From: Methylotenera sp.
GTDB lineage: Bacteria > Pseudomonadota > Gammaproteobacteria > Burkholderiales > Methylophilaceae
Direction of reading: 5' to 3'
Assembly: GCF_029946165.1 (NCBI RefSeq)
Contig: NZ_JAQSDZ010000022.1
Coordinates: 62,001 to 126,000, forward strand
Length of the DNA: 64,000 nt
Under the pieces are notes generated by a model. The model was not told where the DNA came from, did no database searches, and was given only the letters and a program-made list of their open reading frames with translations. Shown here piece after piece: positions 43,237-55,770 of the stretch. Each line of letters starts with the position of its first letter. Position 1 is the first letter of the stretch. A program made the position numbers and the translations under genes.

Positions 43237-43641
43237 TTAATCTGACGTTTTAAGGAAATTGCGCCATCCACTTAAATCGGAAATATCCGTCGAGTTAAGT
43301 GTGGCGTAATGCTCACATAAAAAGCCATTTACAGCGCGACCATCCGCAAGTGTCAGCGTGCCAAAACCTAATGGCGCAGGTACGCCTGATACAAATGTGC
43401 CGTAATTTTCAATTGGCAGTTGCCATACTTCTAGCGTGATTGCCGCACCGCCGCTCACAACGCGCAGCAAACCTGGACGCACGGGTGTGAAGCCGTTTAG
43501 TTTATATAACTTATACTCTGGCGCGGTGGTGGTTTCCTCAATAAAAGTGCCGCCTAAACTGGTGAGTTGCGTATTTAATGGCAAGCCTGTCATGTGTGCG
43601 CCGCAGACAGCTACTTGGATAAATTTTTGATTACTGGTCAT
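43237..43641 (-). CDS. Stand-alone C-terminal domain of allophanate hydrolase
   Basis: A 134-residue protein that matches the C-terminal domain (gamma-glutamylcyclotransferase-like fold) of AtzF/urea amidolyase: VCGAHMTGLPLNTQLTSLGG, then APEYKLYKL, ITLEVWQLP, and VNGFLCEHY near the end. In AtzF this domain follows the amidase domain in one chain and completes the breakdown of N-carboxycarbamate to CO2 and ammonia. Here it is a separate gene 39 nt after the amidase gene, with its own start. Last gene of the guanidine operon. Confidence 0.9.
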   Translation of the reverse strand: MTSNQKFIQVAVCGAHMTGLPLNTQLTSLGGTFIEETTTAPEYKLYKLNGFTPVRPGLLRVVSGGAAITLEVWQLPIENYGTFVSGVPAPLGFGTLTLADGRAVNGFLCEHYATLNSTDISDLSGWRNFLKTSD

Positions 43642-43680
43642 ATTGGTTCGTTTCTATTCTAGATATTAATTTAATTTAGT

Positions 43681-45054
43681 TTACTTAATGAACGGCAAGC
43701 CCATTGCACCTAATGTTTTTGCAGACATCTTTTGCATTTTGGCGGCTAAAGTGAGTAGAGACATATCTTTAAATGCAGGCGCAGAAATGGTGACGCCAAA
43801 AGGCAAGCCATCTTGTTGAAACCCCGTTGGCACGGCGGTTGCGGACAAATCTAATAGGTTCATAAAGTTGGTGTAGTAACCTAAATTAGAATTACATTTT
43901 ACTGGCTCAGCGTTCACTTCATCAATGGTATATATGGTGCCCGCAGTTGGCGTCACCAATAAATCAATGGTCTGCCAAACGGCTTCGGCTTTACGTTGCA
44001 GCGCTTTCAGTTTGTACTGCGACACATAAGTATCTGCCGCACTAAACTTAGTGGCACCGCCTATGATTTGTTTAGTCACGGGAAAAATCGCTTCAGGTTT
44101 AGTTTCAAAAAAATCACGAATCGCGGCATATCGCTCTGCCACCCATGGGCCTTCATAAAGCAAACGCGCTGTTTCTAAAAATGGCTCAAAATCAATCTCT
44201 ACAGATTTACCGCCCAAGGCTTCTAACTGTTTAATCGCTTGCTTAAAAAGTTCGGGGGTTTCGGTGTTGTTAAAGAAAGCCAGTTGTTCTGGCTTTGGCA
44301 CACCAAATGAAAATGGCTTGCCTGACAACGCGTTAAGTCTAATAATCGCTTTTCGTGAGTAAGCATCTTCTTCATCAAACCCTTGAGCGCTTTCAAGCAC
44401 TTTGGCCACATCATCAGCAGTGAGCGCGAAGATTGAAACGCAATCAAGTGTCCGACAGGCAGGTACGACACCGCTGGTGCTCAACAAGCCGCACGTTGGT
44501 TTATGTCCAACCAAATTATTAAACGCTGCTGGCACTCGGCCAGAACCTGCGGTATCCGTCCCCAAGCTAAAGCTTGCCAACCCCAATGCCACAGAAACGG
44601 CTGAACCTGCGCTTGAGCCACCAGAAATATATTCAGAGTTAAAGCTATTTTGGCAGGCTCCGTATGGTGAGCGTGTGCCGACTAAGCCAGTGGCAAACTG
44701 GTCTAAATTGGTCTTGCCTACAGGAATTGCACCTGCATCAATCAACTTTTGAACGACAGTAGCACTTTTGGTAGGCGTATAAGCATATTCTGGACAAGCG
44801 GCAGTGGTGGGTATGACTGCTAAATCGATATTATCTTTAATGGCAAACGGTATGCCGTACAAAGGTAACTCTGCAATGTTTTTTCCTTCTAGGTTTTTAG
44901 CAAAAGCCTGCATCTCTTCAAGCGTTAAACGCCTAATCCAAATATGACGACTGTCTTCACTACCAATTTCTGCATCCAGTTCCTTCACTAAATCAGTTGG
45001 TTTCAGCGCACCAGAAAGGTACAGGTTTCGTAAATGTGAGATTTGTAAGTTCAT
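43681..45054 (-). CDS. atzF: Allophanate hydrolase, amidase domain only
   Basis: A 457-residue amidase-signature enzyme. The catalytic Ser-cisSer-Lys triad is visible: Lys in GIPFAIKDNID (near residue 78), and the serines in GGSSAGSAVSVALG and LGTDTAGSGRVP (near 146-170). It hydrolyses allophanate in the last step of guanidine or urea carboxylation pathways, releasing ammonia. Normal AtzF proteins are about 600 residues; the missing C-terminal domain is encoded by the next gene. It starts 6 nt after the carboxylase stop. Confidence 0.93.
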   Translation of the reverse strand: MNLQISHLRNLYLSGALKPTDLVKELDAEIGSEDSRHIWIRRLTLEEMQAFAKNLEGKNIAELPLYGIPFAIKDNIDLAVIPTTAACPEYAYTPTKSATVVQKLIDAGAIPVGKTNLDQFATGLVGTRSPYGACQNSFNSEYISGGSSAGSAVSVALGLASFSLGTDTAGSGRVPAAFNNLVGHKPTCGLLSTSGVVPACRTLDCVSIFALTADDVAKVLESAQGFDEEDAYSRKAIIRLNALSGKPFSFGVPKPEQLAFFNNTETPELFKQAIKQLEALGGKSVEIDFEPFLETARLLYEGPWVAERYAAIRDFFETKPEAIFPVTKQIIGGATKFSAADTYVSQYKLKALQRKAEAVWQTIDLLVTPTAGTIYTIDEVNAEPVKCNSNLGYYTNFMNLLDLSATAVPTGFQQDGLPFGVTISAPAFKDMSLLTLAAKMQKMSAKTLGAMGLPFIK

Positions 45055-45060
45055 ATTTTT

Positions 45061-48000
45061 CTATTCCTCTTCAATCACAATTAAGTTTTGACCTGCAGAC
45101 ACAGACATACCTTCACTGCATAAAATTTTAGTCACCTTGCCTGCAACCGTTGCGGTGACAGCGATTTCCATTTTCATAGATTCTACAATCGCTACTTCAT
45201 CGCCCTCTTGCACGAAGTCTCCTTCTTTCAATTTAACTTGCCATAAGTTACCTGCAACATGTGAGGCTATTGCACGGCTACCTGCTGGGATTTCCAATGC
45301 ATCAATGGCACTTGTAGACTCTGCTTCATTGCTGTAATTGGCTTGTCCACTCGCAATCCAACGTTCACGTTCTGCATCAAAAGAATTTTGCTGTTTGGTT
45401 TTAAAGGCGTTAATGGTGGCCGCTTCATCGTTTAAAAACTGCTTGTAATCTTTTAGTCGGAAAGTTTGTTCTTCAATCTTGAGTTTGAATTTTCCATGCA
45501 AAAAATCCTCGCGCATTTGTAAAAGCTCATCGGCTGCTACTGGATAAAAGCGAATTTGATCGAAGAAGCGCAATAACCAAGGTTTACCATCTACAAAGTC
45601 TTTAGTCTGGTTCCATCTGTTCCACATTTGTATCGTACGACCCACAAACTGATAGCCACCAGGGCCCTCCATGCCATACACGCACATATAAGCACCACCA
45701 ATACCCACTGCATTTTCAGGCGTCCAAGTTCGTGCTGGGTTGTATTTAGTCGTCACCAAACGGTGACGCGGATCCACTGGCGTTGCTACAGGCGCACCTA
45801 AGTAAACATCACCTAAACCGAGCGTTAAGTAGCTCGCATTAAAGACAATATCTTTCACTTGTTGAATAGAATCTAAGCCATTAATGCGGCGAATAAACTC
45901 AATATTACTCGCATGTCCATCGACCATTTCGCACCAAGGCGCGTCTTTACGCACAGACTGCATATACTTTTCAATGGCTAGCTGGGTAGCAACATCATCC
46001 CAAGAAAGTGGCAGATGTACGATGCGCGTAGGTACTTCCATCTCATCGATACTGGGTAGTTCAGATTCGCCTGTTTGCAGAATTTGAATCAGTTGTTTGA
46101 CAGGGAGCACCAAGCTTTCAAAATGCACTTGTAGTGAACGAATACCCGGCGTGAGGTCGATAATGCCTTTGATGGCTTGTTGTTCTAGCCATTGCATGAG
46201 CGCATGCACACGGAACCTTAAATTCAAATCCAGTACCAACTCACCATACTCAATCAACAAATATTTGTCACCAGATTGTCGGTAAACGACTTTAATTTGA
46301 TCTGCCGTTTCGGCAGTTTCAGCCAGAATTGGGCTGTGTGAAATGCTTGTATTAACCGCTAATGCTGCTGGCTCGCCAATCAGACTCTCTATTGAGCGGT
46401 TTTGAGCTATCTCATAGCTCGCAGCATCTTCTTGAGTCACTCTTATAAAGCGCACTTTATCGCTCGCTTTGAGCTGCCCCATTTTCCATAGCTCAGCCTG
46501 AATGATGGTTGCAGGGCACACAAAGCCTCCCAAGCTTGGGCCGTCTGGCCCTAAAATCACGGGCATATCGCCAGTAAAATCTACTGCGCCAATGGCATAA
46601 GCATTGTCGTGGATATTAGACGGATGCAAACCCGCTTCGCCACCATCTTTACGTGCCCATGTTGGCTTAGGGCCAATCAAGCGAATGCCAGTGGTATTGG
46701 AGTTGTAATGCACTTCCCAATCGGTAGAGAAGAACATTGTGATGTCATCGTCGGTAAAGAAGTCTGGCGCACCATGTGGGCCATACAACACGCCGATTTC
46801 CCAATACTTACTGTATTTCGGCTGCAGGGTTTGCGGTAAAACTTGGGGAATGTAAGTAGTTACTAGCGGTAGAATATGTAAAACATCGCCAACGCGTAAA
46901 GTTCTGCCACCATGCCCACCAAATTGACCTAATGTGAAAGTTGATTTACGGCCTAAATAGTTAGGCACATCAAAGCCACCTTGCACAGCCAAATAAGTAC
47001 GACAGCCTGCATCAATCACTTTGCCTAACTTTAAAACACTGCCTGCTTTAATGTGATGCGATTGCCACATTAAAATAGCTTCACCATCTAATGTCGCCTC
47101 AATCGGCGCACCTGTAATCGCAATCACCGCATCGGTATTAAATTTAAGTTTTGGGCCGATTAAAGTCACTTCTAATGCTGCAACGCCTTCCGCATTACTT
47201 ACCAACTTATTTGCCAACCTAAAGGCTAAATGATCCATAGGCCCTGAAGGCGGCACACCAACTGCCCAATAACCAGTGCGGCCTGGATAATCTTGAATAG
47301 TCGTCATCACACCACCATCTTGCACGTCGATGGTGTGTGGTTTGTAGCTAAAGCTATTCAAATAGCGTGTGATTTGTTTGCCCGCGGGGAATACGCTATC
47401 CATCAATACTTGGCGCAGATACTCCAAATTGGTTTCGATACCATGTAAAGCCGTTTCATCTAATGCGTTGCGCATTTTTGCTACTGCGTTATCGCGGTCT
47501 GGCGCATGCACTAATACTTTGGCAATGAGTGGGTCGTAAAATGGTGAAACATCACTACCCGTTTCTACCCAAGTGTCGTTACGTGCTTTGGGTGAAAACT
47601 TAACCTCAGTCAACACCCCACTTGAAGGCTGAAAGTTTTTATTTGGGTCTTCCGCATACAAGCGGACTTGAATGGCATGTCCTGAGGGATTGTGTGAATA
47701 AGCATCCAGCGCATTAGTTTCACTCGCGGCGATACGTATCATCCACTCCACTAAATCTACACCTGTCACCAATTCCGTTACGCCATGCTCTACTTGCAAG
47801 CGCGTGTTCACTTCTAAAAAGTAAAATTGACCTGAATCGTTATCGTAAACAAACTCAACCGTACCTGCTGAACGATAATTTAACGCCCTGCCCAGCTTAA
47901 CTGCCGTATCTGATAATGATTTTCTAACCGCTTCGGAAATATTCGGCGCTGGGGTTTCTTCAATCACTTTTTGATTGCGACGCTGCACAGAGCAATCGCG

Positions 48001-48675
48001 CTCACCCAAGGCAATGACTTTACCAAGACCATTGCCAAAAATTTGCACCTCAATATGGCGTGCGGCTTGCACATACTTTTCTAAATAAATACCAGTTTCT
48101 TTAAAGTTAGCACGAGATAGTCGTTGAACAGACTCAAAAGCGGCATGCAATTCGTCTTTAGACCAAATTAACTGCATACCAATGCCACCGCCACCAGCTG
48201 TACTTTTTAGCATCACGGGGTAACCAATGCTTTCAGCTTTAATGTAGGCCTCGTCTATATCGGCCAGTAAACCTGTGCCGGGCAACAAAGGTACACCATT
48301 TTTTTCTGCTAACTCACGTGCCGTATGTTTTAAGCCAAAGTCGCGCATTTGCTGAGGCGTTGGGCCGATGAAGGCGATGCCTTTTGCTTCACACTTTTGG
48401 GCAAAATCTGCATTTTCTGATAGAAAGCCATAACCAGGATGAATCGCCTCTGCGCCAGTTTCTATAGCCACTTGCAGAATTTTATCGGCATTTAAATAGC
48501 TTTGTGCCGCAGGAGCAGCGCCTATGCAAACGGCTTCATCAGCATCTAACACATGGCGAGCGCCAGAATCTGGCTGCGAATACACTGCAACAGATTGAAT
48601 GCCCATTTTCTTAAGTGTGCGAATCACGCGACAGGCGATTTCGCCACGGTTTGCTATTAGGACTTTTTTAAACAT
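45061..48675 (-). CDS. Urea-carboxylase family enzyme, probably guanidine carboxylase
   Basis: A 1204-residue biotin-dependent carboxylase. Domains in order: biotin carboxylase (1-450; [15 protein letters not shown] loop, [16 protein letters not shown]), KipA-type carboxyltransferase part (about 470-770), KipI-type part (about 800-1020), and a C-terminal biotin carrier with VESMKMEI near 1165. Family members were first named urea carboxylase. Those in guanidine-riboswitch operons with DUF1989 genes prefer guanidine and make carboxyguanidine. The riboswitch upstream of this operon and the two DUF1989 genes point strongly to guanidine; the sequence alone does not prove substrate choice. Confidence 0.93.
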
Positions 48676-48756
48676 ATTGTTTTTCTCACTGCGTTGCGAG
48701 CCGTCTCGCTTTTTTCAATCCGTATCAGGTCGTCCAGACACGGTTGCTTTATTGGG

Positions 48757-49404
48757 TTAATTCCAAACCAACAATTGAATAGGCGTTGGGTTGTAGGCGT
48801 TACAAGGGTTGTTAAGTTGCGGGCAATTTGAGATGAGCACCAGCACATCCATCTCTGCACGCATCTCAACGTATTTACCGGGTGCCGAAATACCATCCGC
48901 AAAGCTTAAGCCGCCATCTGAGGTCACAGGGACATTCATAAAAAAGTTGATGTTTGCAGTAATGTCGCGCTTAGTAATATTGCGCTCAATCACACAAGCT
49001 GAATGTGTAATGGCATGCATAAAACTATCGCGGCAACTATGCATGGGGCGTTTAGATAACGCATAACGCGTGGTATTGCTTTCAGCCGAACAAGCGCCGC
49101 CTATGGTGTCGTGGCGACCGCAGGTATCAGCCGTAATCGTGAGCATAGGATTGCCTTCACTAGAGTACAGCACCGAGCCTGTGGTCAGATAAATCTGCCC
49201 TTGGCGTTGAATCGTATCAACTGCGCTGTAGCGCTCCGTCGCATCATTTGCGTTGTAAAACAGCGTATCAACCGCTTGGTTACCATCTAAATCCAGAATG
49301 CGGAAGGTTTGACCTTTTTTAACGATGCCAGTCCATGGGTCACCTGCAAGGCAGGTTTCATTAACAACAGCATCCGAAACTACAAATTGGCTTTCAGTTA
49401 ACAT
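48757..49404 (-). CDS. DUF1989 protein, UAAP2 type (carboxyguanidine deiminase subunit)
   Basis: A 215-residue protein of the urea-amidolyase-associated family 2. Characteristic stretches are [41 protein letters not shown], and [21 protein letters not shown]. Two DUF1989 proteins together have been described as the carboxyguanidine deiminase (CgdAB), which converts carboxyguanidine to allophanate and ammonia. It lies directly before the carboxylase gene and 9 nt after the UAAP1 gene. Confidence 0.9.
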
Positions 49405-49413
49405 ATCTAAGTC

Positions 49414-50142
49414 CTAATTAGCGTAAAAGCGTTCAGTGTTAATAAATCCACGCTGATTTTGCTCACAGGCGTTGCGGCAGATATCATTTTCAGGCGCATG
49501 GCCTGCATGCCAAGAGGTCAGTAAAACATCTGATGGTTTGTAAATGGCGGCGGTATCTAGCGGATGTGGCGCGGTGGATAACACGACCAATACGTTCATA
49601 TCAAAGCGCAAATCCACCACATCGCCCGCTTGGCTATTGTCTGCGTTAAAAACCAAACCGCCCGTATCGTTTGCACTCACTTTGCTAAATAAATTCATGT
49701 TAGCGACCAAATCACGCTGACCTAAACCATGCTTGGCAAGCTCGATTAATAAGCCATCTTTTGCACTGCGGTACATGTCGTTACGATGCGTTTGATAATT
49801 GGCTACACCATACTTTTGTTCGATAAGTTTGGCATCTGAGATGCCGCACATGGTGTCGTGCCAGCCAACAGTGTCGCGAATAAATGAGCACATCACGCGC
49901 CCCATGTCGGAATAACAGACATTGCCTGTTGTTAGAAAAGCCGTGTGCTGGGCTTTTAAGCTATCAGGCATGTTGTAGCGCTCTAGCTTTTCTTCGAAGT
50001 TATAAAGCAGCAACGATACATTCGCGCCACCTTGCAAATCGGTAAAGCGCAGTGCAGACCCTCTACGCATTAAACCAGACCAGTGATTTCCACCTGGTAC
50101 GGTTTCTTCCCACAATATTTCATTTGGATTAAATGTGCTCAT
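49414..50142 (-). CDS. DUF1989 protein, UAAP1 type (carboxyguanidine deiminase subunit)
   Basis: A 242-residue protein of the urea-amidolyase-associated family 1. Marks are GGNHWSGLMRRGSALRFTDL near residue 17, then GRVMCSFIRDTVGWHDTMCG, and QRDLVANMNLFSKV. It shares the fold of the next gene product, its probable partner in the carboxyguanidine deiminase. It follows the glnT-like gene by 42 nt. Confidence 0.9.
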   Translation of the reverse strand: MSTFNPNEILWEETVPGGNHWSGLMRRGSALRFTDLQGGANVSLLLYNFEEKLERYNMPDSLKAQHTAFLTTGNVCYSDMGRVMCSFIRDTVGWHDTMCGISDAKLIEQKYGVANYQTHRNDMYRSAKDGLLIELAKHGLGQRDLVANMNLFSKVSANDTGGLVFNADNSQAGDVVDLRFDMNVLVVLSTAPHPLDTAAIYKPSDVLLTSWHAGHAPENDICRNACEQNQRGFINTERFYAN

Positions 50143-50184
50143 TTTTTCAACTTAATAGTATTTACAATTAGCGAATATCACTGC

Positions 50185-51546
50185 CTAGAACATGTAACTG
50201 TAGCGATCGATTTCCCATTGGCTGACCGTTAAATGGTAGGTTTCCCATTCTTCCGTTTTGTATTTTATAAATTCATCACGCAGCTCTTTACCTAATGTTT
50301 TTTCCACCAATGAGTCGGCTGCAAATGCAGAAACCGCTTCGATGAGTGTTTGCGGCAAAAATCCAATTCCACGCGCTTGGCGTTGCTCTTCATTCATATC
50401 ATACAAATTGTCTTCGTTTGGCTTACCCGGATCTAAGCCTTCTCGAATACCTTCCAAACCCGCGGCTAAAGCTAATGTGGCAGCAAGGTATGGATTTACC
50501 GCGCCATCGGCGTTGCGTGACTCACAACGCCCGCCGCCCATTGGCACACGCACAGAGTTGGTACGATTATTTGAGCCGTAGGAATTAAACACGGGTGCCC
50601 AGCTGAAATAACTCATAGCGCCACGTCGAACCAAGCGCTTATAACTATTCACTGTTGGTGCAAATGCAGCACACAAAGCTGGGCCATGTTTTAAGATGCC
50701 CGCGATAAACTGATAACCAAGCGTAGTTAAACCAAGCCCACGTGGATCATCTTTTGGATCACAAGCAAACAAATTTTTGCCAGTTTCTAAATCATAAAGC
50801 GACATATTAAAATGCGCGCCTGTACCCGTTTTATCCGCAAATGGTTTTGGCATCATGGTGGCGACTAAGCCATCTTCTTTAGCGTAGTGTTTCGCCATAT
50901 ATCTAAAGAAAATCATTCTGTCGCACGTGGTTAATGCGTCGCTGTAATTGAAATCAAATTCAAATTGGCTATTGGCGTCTTCATGGTCAAAAGAATACAA
51001 ATCCCAGCCCAAGCCATTAATAGCCGTAGCCATTTTATCCAACCAAGCAAAATTATCCATAAAGCCACGTACGTCATAGCAGGCTTTATCCAGTTTATCG
51101 TCTGGGTTAGGTACGCTTAAACTACCGTCAGCATTTTGTTTTAACAAATAAACTTCGCACTCAATGCCCAAATTCATGCCAAAGCCCATTTCAGCAGCCT
51201 GCGCTAAAACATTTTTAAGCGCCACGCGCGTATTCAAGGCATAAGGCTGACCTTGAAAATGATTATCCGCTGGCATCCAAGCAACTTTAGGTTCCCAAGG
51301 CAATTGAATAATATGGTCTAAATCAGGCACGGAATTTAGCTCATCATCACTCGGCGCCTGTCCCAAGCCATCTAAGGCATAACCCGTGTAACGTTCAGAA
51401 CCAGCAGCCATTTGTGGCAAATGGTCGATAGGTACTACTTTGGCTTTTGGGATACCATAAATATCGACATAAGCGCCTATGCAATACTTAACGCCTTGGT
51501 CTTGCAGTTTTTGCTGTATTTCTGAAACTTCTTTTGCTGATTTCAT
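50185..51546 (-). CDS. glnT: GlnT-type (type III) glutamine synthetase homologue
   Basis: A 453-residue glutamine-synthetase fold protein. Active-site motifs: [10 protein letters not shown] near residue 127 (Glu metal ligand), [17 protein letters not shown] near 195, GTGAHFNMS near 245, and [20 protein letters not shown] near 350. The length and motifs match the GlnT group, which also contains gamma-glutamylmethylamide synthetase GmaS of methylotrophs. In this operon it may capture the ammonium released from guanidine, or ligate another amine to glutamate. Activity cannot be told from sequence. Confidence 0.85.
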
Positions 51547-51562
51547 GAATAACTCTTTTCAA

Positions 51563-52333
51563 TTACTTGTGATTAGAAAAATAAGAATTTGCTAAAGGGG
51601 GTGTTTCGTTTAAACCTTGGTGAATGAGTTTGCTGAGATCTTCAACCATCCAAGCAAACCATTCCTGACCTTTTTCTACCGTTGAAATACTAGGGGTACC
51701 AGTGACACCGTTTGTACTGGTGCGATTGACAGGGTGTGAAAAAACTAAGCCCTCTGTACGGTCGGGGTCATCTGCATTACTTAATAAATCGATGCGTACC
51801 ATATGCGGTGCGGTGGCGAGCATGAGCGAAGTTTCTGCATCATTGGCGTGCCAATCGTCGCCATCGGCATGATGAAACTGTTTAACTCGCTCGCTAATAT
51901 GAGCAGAATTAATCACCGTCACCATCATGTCATCGTGTTCTGCACGTAACATTTCCAAAGCACAGCGCAAAGGTGCGGCATTGGTCACATGCGTATTCAC
52001 AATAAATAAGCGACGAATTCCGCTGTGATAAGCCCAATCCCCTAAATCTTTTATCAGGTTAATTAAGGTAATCGGTTGAATCGCCAAAGTACCAGGCCAG
52101 CGCTGACTATGCCCTATCGAGCAGCCATAAGGCATGGTGGGCAACATTGGCACATGGGTTAATTTTGATACAGCGCTGCATAAAATGTCTGCAAGCACAT
52201 AGTCCATGCCACAGCCCATGTGCGGCCCATGTTGCTCTGTGGCGCCAATTGGTAAAATAGCGGATTGGTTAGCGGCTTCAATTTTTTCAGGCAACTCTGC
52301 CCATGTGAGTTCAGACCAAAACATGTTATCCAT
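51563..52333 (-). CDS. Creatininase-family amidohydrolase
   Basis: About 256 residues from [15 protein letters not shown]. Its ATG overlaps the ABC ATPase stop by one base (TGATG). Creatininase metal ligands are seen in LPIGATEQHGPHMGCGMDY (His, His, Asp) and HANDAETSLM (His, Glu). The usual NGHGGN segment reads NTHVTNAAPLR. Family members hydrolyse creatinine or cleave amide bonds in cofactor pathways. In a guanidine operon it may act on a guanidino compound, opening a wider substrate range. The role is inferred. Confidence 0.85.
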   Translation of the reverse strand: MDNMFWSELTWAELPEKIEAANQSAILPIGATEQHGPHMGCGMDYVLADILCSAVSKLTHVPMLPTMPYGCSIGHSQRWPGTLAIQPITLINLIKDLGDWAYHSGIRRLFIVNTHVTNAAPLRCALEMLRAEHDDMMVTVINSAHISERVKQFHHADGDDWHANDAETSLMLATAPHMVRIDLLSNADDPDRTEGLVFSHPVNRTSTNGVTGTPSISTVEKGQEWFAWMVEDLSKLIHQGLNETPPLANSYFSNHK

Positions 52334-53253
52334 CACTCCACATTATCCGCAACATTCACAAAGCGAATCATGCGCTGGGTAATGGCTTCATCTTCAGCAT
52401 CCTTCTCCGCGGCTGTTTTAGGTGGGTGGATAAGCGACTCCAACCGCGCCTTGGTAGCTAAGAACTCCGGGCTAGTAAAATCTCTAACGCTACGTGGGCG
52501 TGGCACTGGCACTTCAATTAACTCTTGCACTTCGCCTGGGTGGGCTTTTAGTACCAGAATTCGGTCTGCCAGAAAAATAGCCTCATCTAAATCGTGTGTA
52601 ATAAACAAAATCGTCACATCGACATTGCGCCAAATTTCAAGCAAATGTGTTTGCATCTTGGCGCGAGATTGCGCATCTAATGCGCCAAAAGGCTCATCCA
52701 TTAATAAAATACGTGGTTGATTCACTAGCGCACGGGCAATAGCGACTCGCTGTTTCATACCACCAGAAAGCTCATGTGGATAAGCATTTGCAAACTTCTC
52801 TAGGCCAACCAACTCCAACCACATATCAGCTTCTTTTGCGGCTTCATCACGACTGGCATTGTTCATTTCTAAACCGAACATGACATTTTTCTTAACACTT
52901 AGCCACGGAAATAAAGTGTAGCCTTGGAATACCATTCCGCGGTCACGCCCCGGGCCAGTGACAGGTTTTCCATCGAGTAAAACATCGCCAGAAGAATGTG
53001 ATTCCAAGCCCGCTAAGATACGAATTAACGTCGATTTACCACAGCCAGATGGCCCAATCACACAAACAAATTCACGCCTATGCGTTTTGAAGTTAATGTT
53101 ACTTAAAGCGGTAACCTCACCTTTGGCAGTTTTGTAAACTTTACCTAACTGCTTCACCTCTAAAATAACTTCGCGTTTTTTGAATTTATCAAAGCGACTT
53201 TTAACAGCTTCGGATTGCTCTAAGTAACTCGGAAGAATTGTATTGTTTTCCAT
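52333..53253 (-). CDS. ABC transporter ATPase (SsuB/TauB/NrtD type)
   Basis: About 306 residues from [13 protein letters not shown], with AAGGG five nt before the ATG. Walker A is [18 protein letters not shown], the signature is [15 protein letters not shown], Walker B is [12 protein letters not shown], and the H-loop is [10 protein letters not shown]. All are intact. It energises the permease encoded just upstream. Three-gene importers of this group, with urea-carboxylase and DUF1989 genes, are the expected guanidine uptake system. Confidence 0.95.
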
Positions 53254-53261
53254 ATGCACCC

Positions 53262-54227
53262 TTACTCTTTATTCGCAGACCTGTCCCAAGGGAACAAGCG
53301 CTTACCTAGCCAAGCTAAAATCAAATCACCGCCTAAGCCAATCACGCCGATGATAATGATTGCCGCATAAACGTTATCAAAATGCTGATAGCGTGCCTGT
53401 TGCGTGATAAACCAAGTGATACCAGAAGATGTGCCAATCAGTTCCGCCACAATTAAATATGTCCAAGCCCAGCCTAATAAAATACGTTGGTCACGATACA
53501 ACTCGGGCAAAATGCCAGGAATAATCACATGCATCATCAGTTTCCATTTACTTGTGCCTAGCGTGAGTGCGGCTTCAAGCAAGGAGTAATCGAGCTTACG
53601 GGTGGTATTAGCTATTATCAGAATTTGCTGAAACAAAGTACCAATCACAATAATGGCTATTTTCGGCCCGTCATAAATCCCTAAAATAGCCACAGCTAGT
53701 GCCCCAAAGGCCGGTGCAGGTAAATATCTAAAAAACTCTATGAAAGGCTCAAAAAGCCTAGATACGGCACTGTATGTTCCACATAAAATACCTATTGGCA
53801 CGCCAATCAATGATGAGATAAAAAATCCCCAGAATATGATTTGTATACTATGCCAAAGACTTTCATGCAGCCATTTACCATCGCGTTGCTCAGGGGCTGT
53901 GGTAAACCCTGTATACAATGCGCTGGCAACTTCATGAGGGGCAGGTAAATATATCGGGTTAGCTGGCTTACCTTCTGGAATCGCCTTACCAGCAGCTTGC
54001 ATGTTGGCGGACTCTTCTTTGAAAGAGGCCTTATCCACCAGCATGTCTACTTGAAAATAATCCACATCTCCTGGTTTATTTATCATCACCATTGGATGCC
54101 ATACGAACGGCACATAACTGACTACACACCAAATTAACAAGGGCAACAGAAATGAGCCTAAACCCAATAATTTTTGCCTACGCGGTGACAACTCTCTTCG
54201 CACCGCAAACCAAGACTCTAGACTCAT
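53262..54227 (-). CDS. ABC transporter permease (SsuC/TauC type)
   Basis: A 321-residue inner-membrane protein. One N-terminal helix ([20 protein letters not shown]) and a periplasmic loop of about 80 residues precede the BPD permease core. The EAA loop is near residue 200-225 ([20 protein letters not shown], then [11 protein letters not shown]). The long loop before the core is a feature of this subfamily. It carries the substrate across the membrane with the ATPase, whose gene follows 8 nt later. Confidence 0.93.
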
Positions 54228-54284
54228 TCTGCAACCAATCTATTTAACTTTAGACTATCAATAATAAAAATCTAAGCAGACAAA

Positions 54285-55286
54285 CTATTTAGCTAGCAAT
54301 GAGGGATCAATGGCTTTCTGAATATCCATAGGCTTTTTATACACACCATATTTAACATTGAAGTCATCAGAGATTTTTGAAGAACCGTATAAAGATTTAA
54401 AGCCTGGCGCCTTAACAAACACCTTTCTACCTTCTTCTATGCTAAGTAGTTTGGTACCTTTTAATAACGGTAAATAGGCTTCTGGTTTAATGCCAACACG
54501 CGCGGCCATGATTTTTACTGCATCTGGCTGAGTTTTAGGATCATTGATGTACATCACTACTTTGTCCCAAACTTTTACCACTTTTTTCCAATCGGCTTTA
54601 CGGCTGGATAAACTTGTTGGGCTTACCGTCAAAACGTCATAGATAAGACCAGGTTCATCAGCCGAGGTATAGATTGGCTTAGCACCTGGCACACGACTCA
54701 TGGCTTCACCCGAATTTGGCTGCCAAGCCCCAATAGCAACCAAATCGCCTGAAGCTAAGGCTTGCGGTGTTTCGTTGGTTTTGGTGTTAACAATGGTGAC
54801 ATCTGACTCTTTCATGCCGACTTTTTCTAAGCCATTGAGCAGTAAAAGGTGTTCAACAAAACCAGTTTCTAAACCAATTTTCTTACCTTTTAAATCCTTG
54901 AGGCTTTTAATGCCTTGTTTACCGACAATCATATCGTTGCCATTAGAATAATCTGTCAAAAGAATCATGACATTTTTTGCTCCGCCAGCACCTGTCACCA
55001 AAGCATCACCATTGGTAACAGTCACGCCGTCAATTTTACCTGCAGCAAAAGCATCCATAGAAGCAACGTAGTCGAACCACTCAAATTGCACATCGACACC
55101 AGCTTCTTTAAACCAACCCTTATCAATCGCTACTTGCCAAGCTACCCATCCAGGCCAATCGCTGTAACCAACCTTTAAAGGGGCGGCAGCGTTAGATAGA
55201 TTGGTAAAAAGTAAAGATGCGGTGAATGCAGTGGCAGTTAATACAGTACGGGCAGAAAATCGTTTGATAAGACTTGTAGTATGCAT
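54285..55286 (-). CDS. Substrate-binding protein of the probable guanidine ABC importer
   Basis: A 333-residue NMT1/SsuA-type periplasmic binding protein. The signal peptide ([20 protein letters not shown] onward) ends near [17 protein letters not shown]. The fold is seen from [20 protein letters not shown] and [19 protein letters not shown]. It is the first gene of the operon, directly after the riboswitch, so it should bind guanidine or a related cation. Confidence 0.9.
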
Positions 55287-55305
55287 GGCTGACTCCTAGG
55301 TTGGT

Positions 55306-55345
55306 AAAAAGTCGAGAAGGCGGCATTTATATAAACGCTTCCTCC
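55306..55345 (-). terminator. Intrinsic terminator of the riboswitch expression platform
   Basis: On the minus strand, just behind the aptamer, GAAGCGTTTA can pair with TAAATGC and the following CGCCTTC, forming a long hairpin that ends CGACTTTTT. Its 5' arm overlaps the last conserved aptamer bases (GCCCGGGAGG). Ligand binding should therefore block hairpin formation and let transcription continue. Confidence 0.7.
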
Positions 55346-55440
55346 CGGGCTTTTATCCCTCCGTGTAGCCACATGATAATTGGCCGACAACTCTCGGTCC
55401 AGACGCTTTTAAAATACAAAAGCCGGAACCCTAGTCATCT
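55337..55440 (-). promoter_or_regulatory. Guanidine-I (ykkC/yxkD) riboswitch
   Basis: Read on the minus strand, the leader of the ABC operon holds the conserved blocks of the ykkC class in order: CTAGGGTTCCGG (55423-55434), CTGGACCGAGAGTTG, ACACGGAGGGATAAAAG and GCCCGGGAG (ending near 55341). Spacing and sequence fit the guanidine-I aptamer very well. The class switches on genes when guanidine binds. It controls all genes down to 43237. Confidence 0.95.
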
Positions 55441-55495
55441 TTTTGAAACTTCAGCGGTTAGTAAACACTATCCGCTTTCTCGCTGTTTATTAATA

Positions 55496-55511
55496 AGCAA
55501 TCAGCATGCCA
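55496..55511 (-). promoter_or_regulatory. Sigma-54 (-24/-12) promoter of the guanidine operon
   Basis: On the minus strand TGGCAT-GCTGA-TTGCT matches the RpoN consensus TGGCAC-N5-TTGCW, with the essential GG and GC at the correct 10-bp spacing. Transcription would start near 55485, about 50 nt before the riboswitch. Confidence 0.8.
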
Positions 55512-55594
55512 GTTAGATAAATAAAAAAACAACTATATAAATCATATAGTTGATAGTTAACAACTTAAGTATCAATAAGGAAACTTGAACTGAT

Positions 55595-55614
55595 TTGCAC
55601 CAATATAGTGCTGC
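55595..55614 (-). promoter_or_regulatory. NtrC-type activator site
   Basis: TTGCACCAATATAGTGCTGC contains GCAC-N7-GTGC, the dyad of NtrC sites (E. coli glnA: GCACCAACATGGTGC). It lies about 110 bp upstream of the predicted sigma-54 start, a normal enhancer distance. A further half-site-like TTGCACTAAAGT lies at about 55624. Confidence 0.65.
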
Positions 55615-55770
55615 ATAATGATAATTGCACTAAAGTAACTTGCATTGGCAAGAAAATAATTTACTGCTATTTATGATAGCTGGTGATGTGCTCAATGCAG
55701 TTGAAATGGGTTTCAAAAGTGCAGTGGCTAAAGTGCAGTGGCTTATGCCAGTGAAGTAAAATCGGTAGCG

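Follow-up and report, generated by a model that had tools for sequence, protein, structure and literature searches.

Which signals have to be present before the ten genes running from position 55286 down to 43237 are transcribed is the question raised by this locus. All ten lie on the minus strand of the window, i.e. the whole stretch of 64,000 nucleotides that was analysed. A preliminary description had read the region above them as AND logic, in which nitrogen starvation starts transcription and guanidine lets it continue. The arrangement of sites and genes (Table 1) makes it very likely that they form a guanidine-assimilation operon under serial control, by nitrogen limitation and then by guanidine.

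Table 1. Upstream elements and genes of the operon, in the direction of transcription.
Feature	Position	Strand	Basis or remark
NtrC half-site TTAGTGCA	55626..55633	-	centre of implied site 30 bp above main dyad
NtrC-type dyad AGCACTATATTGGTGCA	55596..55612	-	centred about -119
A+T-rich conserved block, IHF-like (8/9 positions)	55540..55552	-	between enhancer and promoter
Predicted sigma-54 promoter TGGCATGCTGATTGCT	55496..55511	-	start predicted about 55485
Leader hairpin AGCGG...CCGCT	55453..55476	-	between predicted start and aptamer
Guanidine-I riboswitch aptamer	55340..55445	-	RF00442 covariance match
Intrinsic terminator	55306..55347	-	overlaps aptamer 3' end; CGGGAG arm; U5 55310-55306
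ABC importer substrate-binding protein	54285..55286	-	TIGR03427 and SsuA-family matches, below cut-offs
ABC permease	53262..54227	-	PF00528
ABC ATPase	52333..53259	-	PF00005
Creatininase-superfamily hydrolase Crn	51563..52336	-	PF02633, 225 bits
GlnT, type III glutamate-ammonia/amine ligase	50185..51546	-	TIGR03105, 655 bits
CgdA-type DUF1989 protein (UAAP1)	49414..50142	-	TIGR03425, 339 bits, cut-off 206
CgdB-type DUF1989 protein (UAAP2)	48757..49404	-	TIGR03424, 343 bits, cut-off 285
Guanidine-II-like element	48697..48741	-	two hairpins, ACGA and ACGG loops, before gca
Guanidine carboxylase gca	45061..48675	-	TIGR02712, 1921 bits; D699 and D956
Allophanate hydrolase, amidase part	43681..45054	-	TIGR02713, profile 2-419 of 563; 457 aa
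Allophanate hydrolase C-terminal domain, separate gene	43237..43641	-	PF21986, 163 bits; 134 aa

The gene content agrees with what had been described: an importer, a creatininase homologue, GlnT, a DUF1989 pair, a carboxylase and allophanate hydrolase. The placing of the urea-carboxylase-family enzyme in the guanidine pathway is borne out by both diagnostic aspartates, found on a urea-carboxylase scaffold at the positions corresponding to 1330 and 1584 of K. lactis (numbers derived from the two chains in the comparison). D699 stands opposite Asn 1330 of the K. lactis urea enzyme, and D956, the second diagnostic Asp, is invariant in the 12 aligned sequences; the pair is the guanidine carboxylase signature in the available portion of PMC11410670. 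Beside gca lie two DUF1989 subunits over the TIGR03425 and TIGR03424 cut-offs, as in CgdAB, the naming of one as CgdA and the other as CgdB being ours. Allophanate hydrolase is present, but its division between two ORFs had been overlooked. The split recurs in 8 of the 8 genus loci that reach the gene; a single frame of 533-609 codons was found in 18 other distinct loci, and one more runs off its contig. Together, the products would import guanidine, carboxylate it, deiminate the product to allophanate and split this to ammonia for possible capture by GlnT.

The RpoN/NtrC motif scan recovered both proposed sites above the aptamer. The sigma-54 promoter lies exactly where it had been placed (55496-55511) and scores 11/12 positions of the -24/-12 site. 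In the 2.94 Mb genome there are 10 matches to the strict pattern TGGCAYGN4TTGCT and none to its reversed form; the strict pattern missed the glnA site, which was picked out by eye. The GG/GC -24/-12 element is accompanied by an RpoN over its cut-off in the host genome. The NtrC-type dyad, a 17-mer within the 20 bases originally indicated (55595-55614), is the sole zero-mismatch dyad of this type genome-wide, and a pattern scan found GCACYN3TTGGTGC once in the whole genome. Allowing one mismatch takes in the upstream region of the host's own glnA. Weak matches mean little, because at two mismatches the reversed pattern already yields 46 and 55 matches, against 86 and 87 for the dyad.

The host glnA (named by eye) carries two dyads 31 bp apart and, further down, a sigma-54-like TGGCACGTTTCCTGCT, an arrangement that serves as an internal control for the NtrC motif. 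The genome encodes an NtrC family protein (699 bits against a cut-off of 558.6), whose gene is located beyond glnA together with an NtrB-like ORF. A dyad shared with this standard target and an NtrC gene in the same genome make the operon a predicted member of the NtrC regulon. Within the genus, a dyad of at least 11/14 positions accompanies 13 of 13 riboswitches. The dyad first described is real, but the conserved half-site 30 bp higher had escaped notice; its GTGC is kept in 12, and GTGCA in 11, of the 13 aligned genus promoters. An IHF site in the A+T-rich block was considered and dropped: the block is conserved, but the match is weak, being equalled in shuffles at a frequency of 0.17.

The guanidine-I aptamer, proposed at 55337-55440, was returned by the Rfam covariance search as a full-length ykkC-type match (RF00442, positions 1-107) of 89.5 bits, over the gathering cut-off of 63 (E 9.6e-15). 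The terminator had rightly been described as overlapping: the CGGGAG of the aptamer serves as the terminator arm by pairing with CUUCUCG ahead of the U5 run, an expression platform that is exclusive with the aptamer, while the folding energy of the terminator alone is ordinary (z -1.5 to -1.8). Our own hairpin test finds the CGGGAG terminator in 12 of the 13 genus leaders, and in the one remaining leader, that of G009, the hairpin is also present, but four consecutive T do not immediately follow. By that test only 27 of 59 riboswitches have a terminator of this form, and a universal terminator platform for Guanidine-I was rejected. The additional hairpin between the predicted start and the aptamer folds in the leader, and most genus rows were judged similar by eye. 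The succession of dyad, sigma-54 promoter, aptamer, terminator and guanidine operon is confirmed, and it is conserved.

Another guanidine sensor is probably located ahead of gca, where two ACGR-loop hairpins with covarying stems are found. The RF01068 match (25.4 bits, E 0.11) stays below the gathering cut-off of 32, and five of the seven relatives searched reach the Rfam cut-off for Guanidine-II at the same place. Eighteen elements, picked by eye among 54 upstream regions, were aligned on a structure based on the sequence of the window itself; their covariation is 0.525, against 0.173 when shuffled and at most 0.184 when slid. Paired cells make up 87.0% (67.1% in shuffles), and 60 cells are changed on both sides (20.7 in shuffles). 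The automatic hairpin test called 25 of the 54 regions and missed several genus members through its mismatch rule.

Because the order of sites is real and conserved and the pathway passes the residue tests, we infer that control by nitrogen limitation AND guanidine fits the locus best. When nitrogen is limiting, NtrC bound at the upstream sites would activate sigma-54 polymerase at 55511-55496. Judging from the anatomy and the riboswitch class, transcription would stop without guanidine, as the CGGGAG of the aptamer joins the terminator; with guanidine, the aptamer would keep this strand and transcription would enter the operon. The AND logic first proposed is therefore supported in its order and pathway but incomplete, since the Guanidine-II element probably makes translation depend on guanidine as well.

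The promoter part of this scheme is general: a sigma-54 site is found some 20-100 nt above most of the Pseudomonadota Guanidine-I riboswitches examined. Guanidine-I matches were obtained in 15 of 61 genomes of relatives, 34 of 370 of the class and 57 of 397 of the phylum. The survey set, drawn from 95 genomes, comprised 125 Pseudomonadota riboswitches for which 400 nt of upstream sequence was available; three rows were left out, G061 for its short upstream region and G587 and G757 as weak matches. In 102 of the 125, the 120 nt preceding the aptamer contain a sigma-54 site of at least 10/12 positions; the two 120-nt bins further up, taken as control, do so in 0 and 3 of the 125. At least one riboswitch with such a site was found in 46 of 64 genera and 40 of 48 families, and 89 of the 112 riboswitches outside the host genus have it. 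For the first 58 riboswitches, 40 sites were observed between -100 and -41, whereas dinucleotide shuffles gave 0.22 on average and never more than 2. The NtrC dyad (at least 11/14) accompanies 60 of 125, compared with 1 of 125 for the reversed motif and a mean of 2.0 for shuffles; dyads of 12 or more occur in only 15 of 112 outside the genus. Among the named loci, 61 of 80 were searched for Guanidine-I, and 11 of the 12 with a match have a sigma-54 site, including those of Pseudomonas, Acinetobacter, Caballeronia, Neorhizobium and Hyphomicrobium; Aliarcobacter is without one.

Some Guanidine-I riboswitches have other surroundings. Two (L074 in G162, L077 in G084) are internal to the operon and precede cgdA; a sigma-54 site matching at 12/12 positions accompanies that of G084, and that of G162 has none, though G162 has RpoN. 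A further riboswitch, in genome G010 (L020, 1013-5040), stands over different genes, by eye desaturase-like, metallo-beta-lactamase-fold, 2-oxoglutarate dioxygenase-like and EamA-like transporter genes, and genes similar to some of this set are present in L222 and L224.

Could the sigma-54 and NtrC sites be chance matches, or serve another unit, with the operon transcribed from a sigma-70 promoter and responsive to guanidine alone? A sigma-70-like site (9/12) does exist at 55560-55532, and no sigma-54 site of 9 or more stands above 20 of the 125 riboswitches, four of these rows being themselves below the Rfam cut-off. Six of the siteless riboswitches make up the whole of family f225 (6 of 6), in which 0 of 6 genomes have RpoN over the cut-off: three gave no match and two nothing but fragments, and in G735 there are two matches of full length, both of them (275.1 and 225.5) below 277.35. 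Eight siteless genomes outside this family all have RpoN (G741, G506, G509 and G639 are not among the eight), so that absence of sigma-54 explains only part of the exceptions. However, sigma-70-like sites in the region number fewer than expected from shuffling (15 versus 25.5), and the crowding of sigma-54 sites just above the aptamer, with almost none further up, speaks against chance. We consider control by sigma-70 and guanidine alone very improbable, and retain serial control. If most Pseudomonadota Guanidine-I operons sit behind sigma-54, guanidine alone should not induce them in nitrogen-rich medium; growth and reporter tests would have to be run differently, and the logic would fit guanidine as a last-resort nitrogen source.

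The role of Crn and GlnT invites two further alternatives. GlnT might be a gamma-glutamylmethylamide synthetase for methylamine, as the solved structure nearest to it is that of a glutamate-methylamine ligase (388 bits). However, a separate GMAS-like copy in the genome, 41% identical to GlnT, scores 807 bits to the same structure and adjoins genes that by eye resemble those of the N-methylglutamate pathway, a cluster that fits a methylotroph host. GlnT is 30% identical to GlnA; like GlnA, it has an Asp where the GMAS-like copy has Trp, and 7 of 7 aligned operon GlnTs carry it. An Asp at this position helps to bind ammonium in glutamine synthetase. GlnT and the GMAS-like copy are distinct paralogues; the separate copy and the Asp weaken methylamine assimilation to an improbable role, and we read capture of ammonia as more likely.

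Alternatively, the operon might serve another guanidino compound, e.g. a methylated or acylated one, which Crn and GlnT would process before the known guanidine pathway takes over. Crn matches at E 1e-30 or better occur in 12 of 370 class genomes, and GlnT adjoins in all 12; we regard the pair as a co-occurring accessory. In 9 of the 12, the window included, Crn is at least 60% identical, and the importers of the other 8, where found, are likewise close (63-75%). Methylguanidine operons with extra enzymes do exist according to the accessible text of PMC12508155. Against this, Crn of 38-40% identity is paired with an importer of distant type in the remaining three (G084, G273, G398), so that Crn is not tied to one importer and this alternative is lowered; L022 keeps the close importer without Crn and GlnT, and, in the same text of PMC12508155, V. 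boliviensis Guanidine-I showed no binding of methylguanidine over the range tested. We regard a different substrate as unlikely, though with more weight than a methylamine role for GlnT, and prefer guanidine itself. Creatinine degradation was discarded, given that Crn reaches 116.9 bits against the creatininase equivalog (cut-off 235) and no creatinase-like gene is among the ten operon genes. In alignment, Crn retains most of the creatininase positions that we take to be metal ligands, and Crn and GlnT together suggest an uncharacterised step.

Some sister operons with Crn and GlnT may have exchanged the sensor. In five of them (L131, L223, L226, L227, L228) a NikR-family gene follows glnT, L131 and L223 being those covered by the family-library scans, and an RF00442-type search found Guanidine-I in none of the five. 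In all five, GTAWTAC-N14-GTAWTAC precedes the importer gene (0, 0, 0, 1 and 2 mismatches), below a sigma-54-like site recognised by eye; L226, L228 and L222 have extra copies in front of cgdA, gca or crn. A NikR-family gene with its own operator stands in place of Guanidine-I. Neither gene nor operator was found in L224, L229, L105 and L110, nor seen in L225 and L107, both cut by contig ends. L222, with operators but no NikR-like match in the stretch examined, argues against a perfect rule. Genome-wide, at no more than one mismatch, the sites of G188, G170, G400, G133 and G232 all fall within the operon; G323, G394, G000 and G050 have matches elsewhere, and the reversed pattern is commoner in G400 (3 vs 1) and G232 (2 vs 1). 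For these reasons it is the position of the operator, not its number, that constitutes evidence. L223 has changes at the residues aligned to the histidines of 2bj1 that presumably bind nickel, and L131 keeps two of them. It is possible, and we suggest it tentatively, that interchangeable sensors act on one nitrogen-gated promoter: Guanidine-I, or in the sister operons a repurposed NikR-family repressor sensing guanidine or a guanidino compound rather than nickel. If so, the exchange would be a swap of protein and RNA sensors within one pathway.

The window's operon has no NikR-family gene among its genes, and a NikR-type operator was rejected for the window, the single match having 2 mismatches and lying far from the operon. 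A NikR-like gene was also observed near gca in Acinetobacter and Novosphingobium (L132, L133, L142, L143), and the three Acinetobacter loci have Guanidine-I as well.

Among known systems, the closest is the Vreelandella boliviensis operon (PMC12508155, available portion), which shares the ABC importer, cgdAB, gca and allophanate hydrolase, with Guanidine-I at the head and Guanidine-II before gca, so that this arrangement is a known one; it has mgdH/mgdL where Crn and GlnT are found here, and the allophanate hydrolase is split here. In the enterobacterial operons, as covered by the accessible part of the review PMC12186494, importer and deiminase are likewise under Guanidine-I and carboxylase and hydrolase under Guanidine-II, whereas Crn and GlnT are present here. 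Both sources, as far as their accessible text goes, treat guanidine riboswitches as the operon's sensor with no nitrogen-status layer: that of PMC12186494 mentions neither sigma, NtrC nor nitrogen limitation, and that of PMC12508155 does not mention NtrC and has sigma only as a chemical supplier. Titles and abstract openings, which leave some key papers outside the survey, gave no report of NtrC/sigma-54 control of guanidine riboswitches. The preliminary description called the double control less described; it is not peculiar to this locus. The operon is a genuine and conserved case of a known pathway, behind a widespread promoter logic that we did not find described in the literature searched. 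Known NikR operators have a two-half-site layout, and the sister operons resemble NikR-controlled ones in combining a NikR-family gene with such an operator; they differ in the operator sequence and in the nickel-site-aligned residues of L223. With glnA-type NtrC/sigma-54 promoters, such as that of the host glnA, the operon has in common the spacing of about 30 bp between NtrC sites, as well as the -24/-12 promoter; here, however, a riboswitch terminator follows, and the upper NtrC site is a conserved half-site only.
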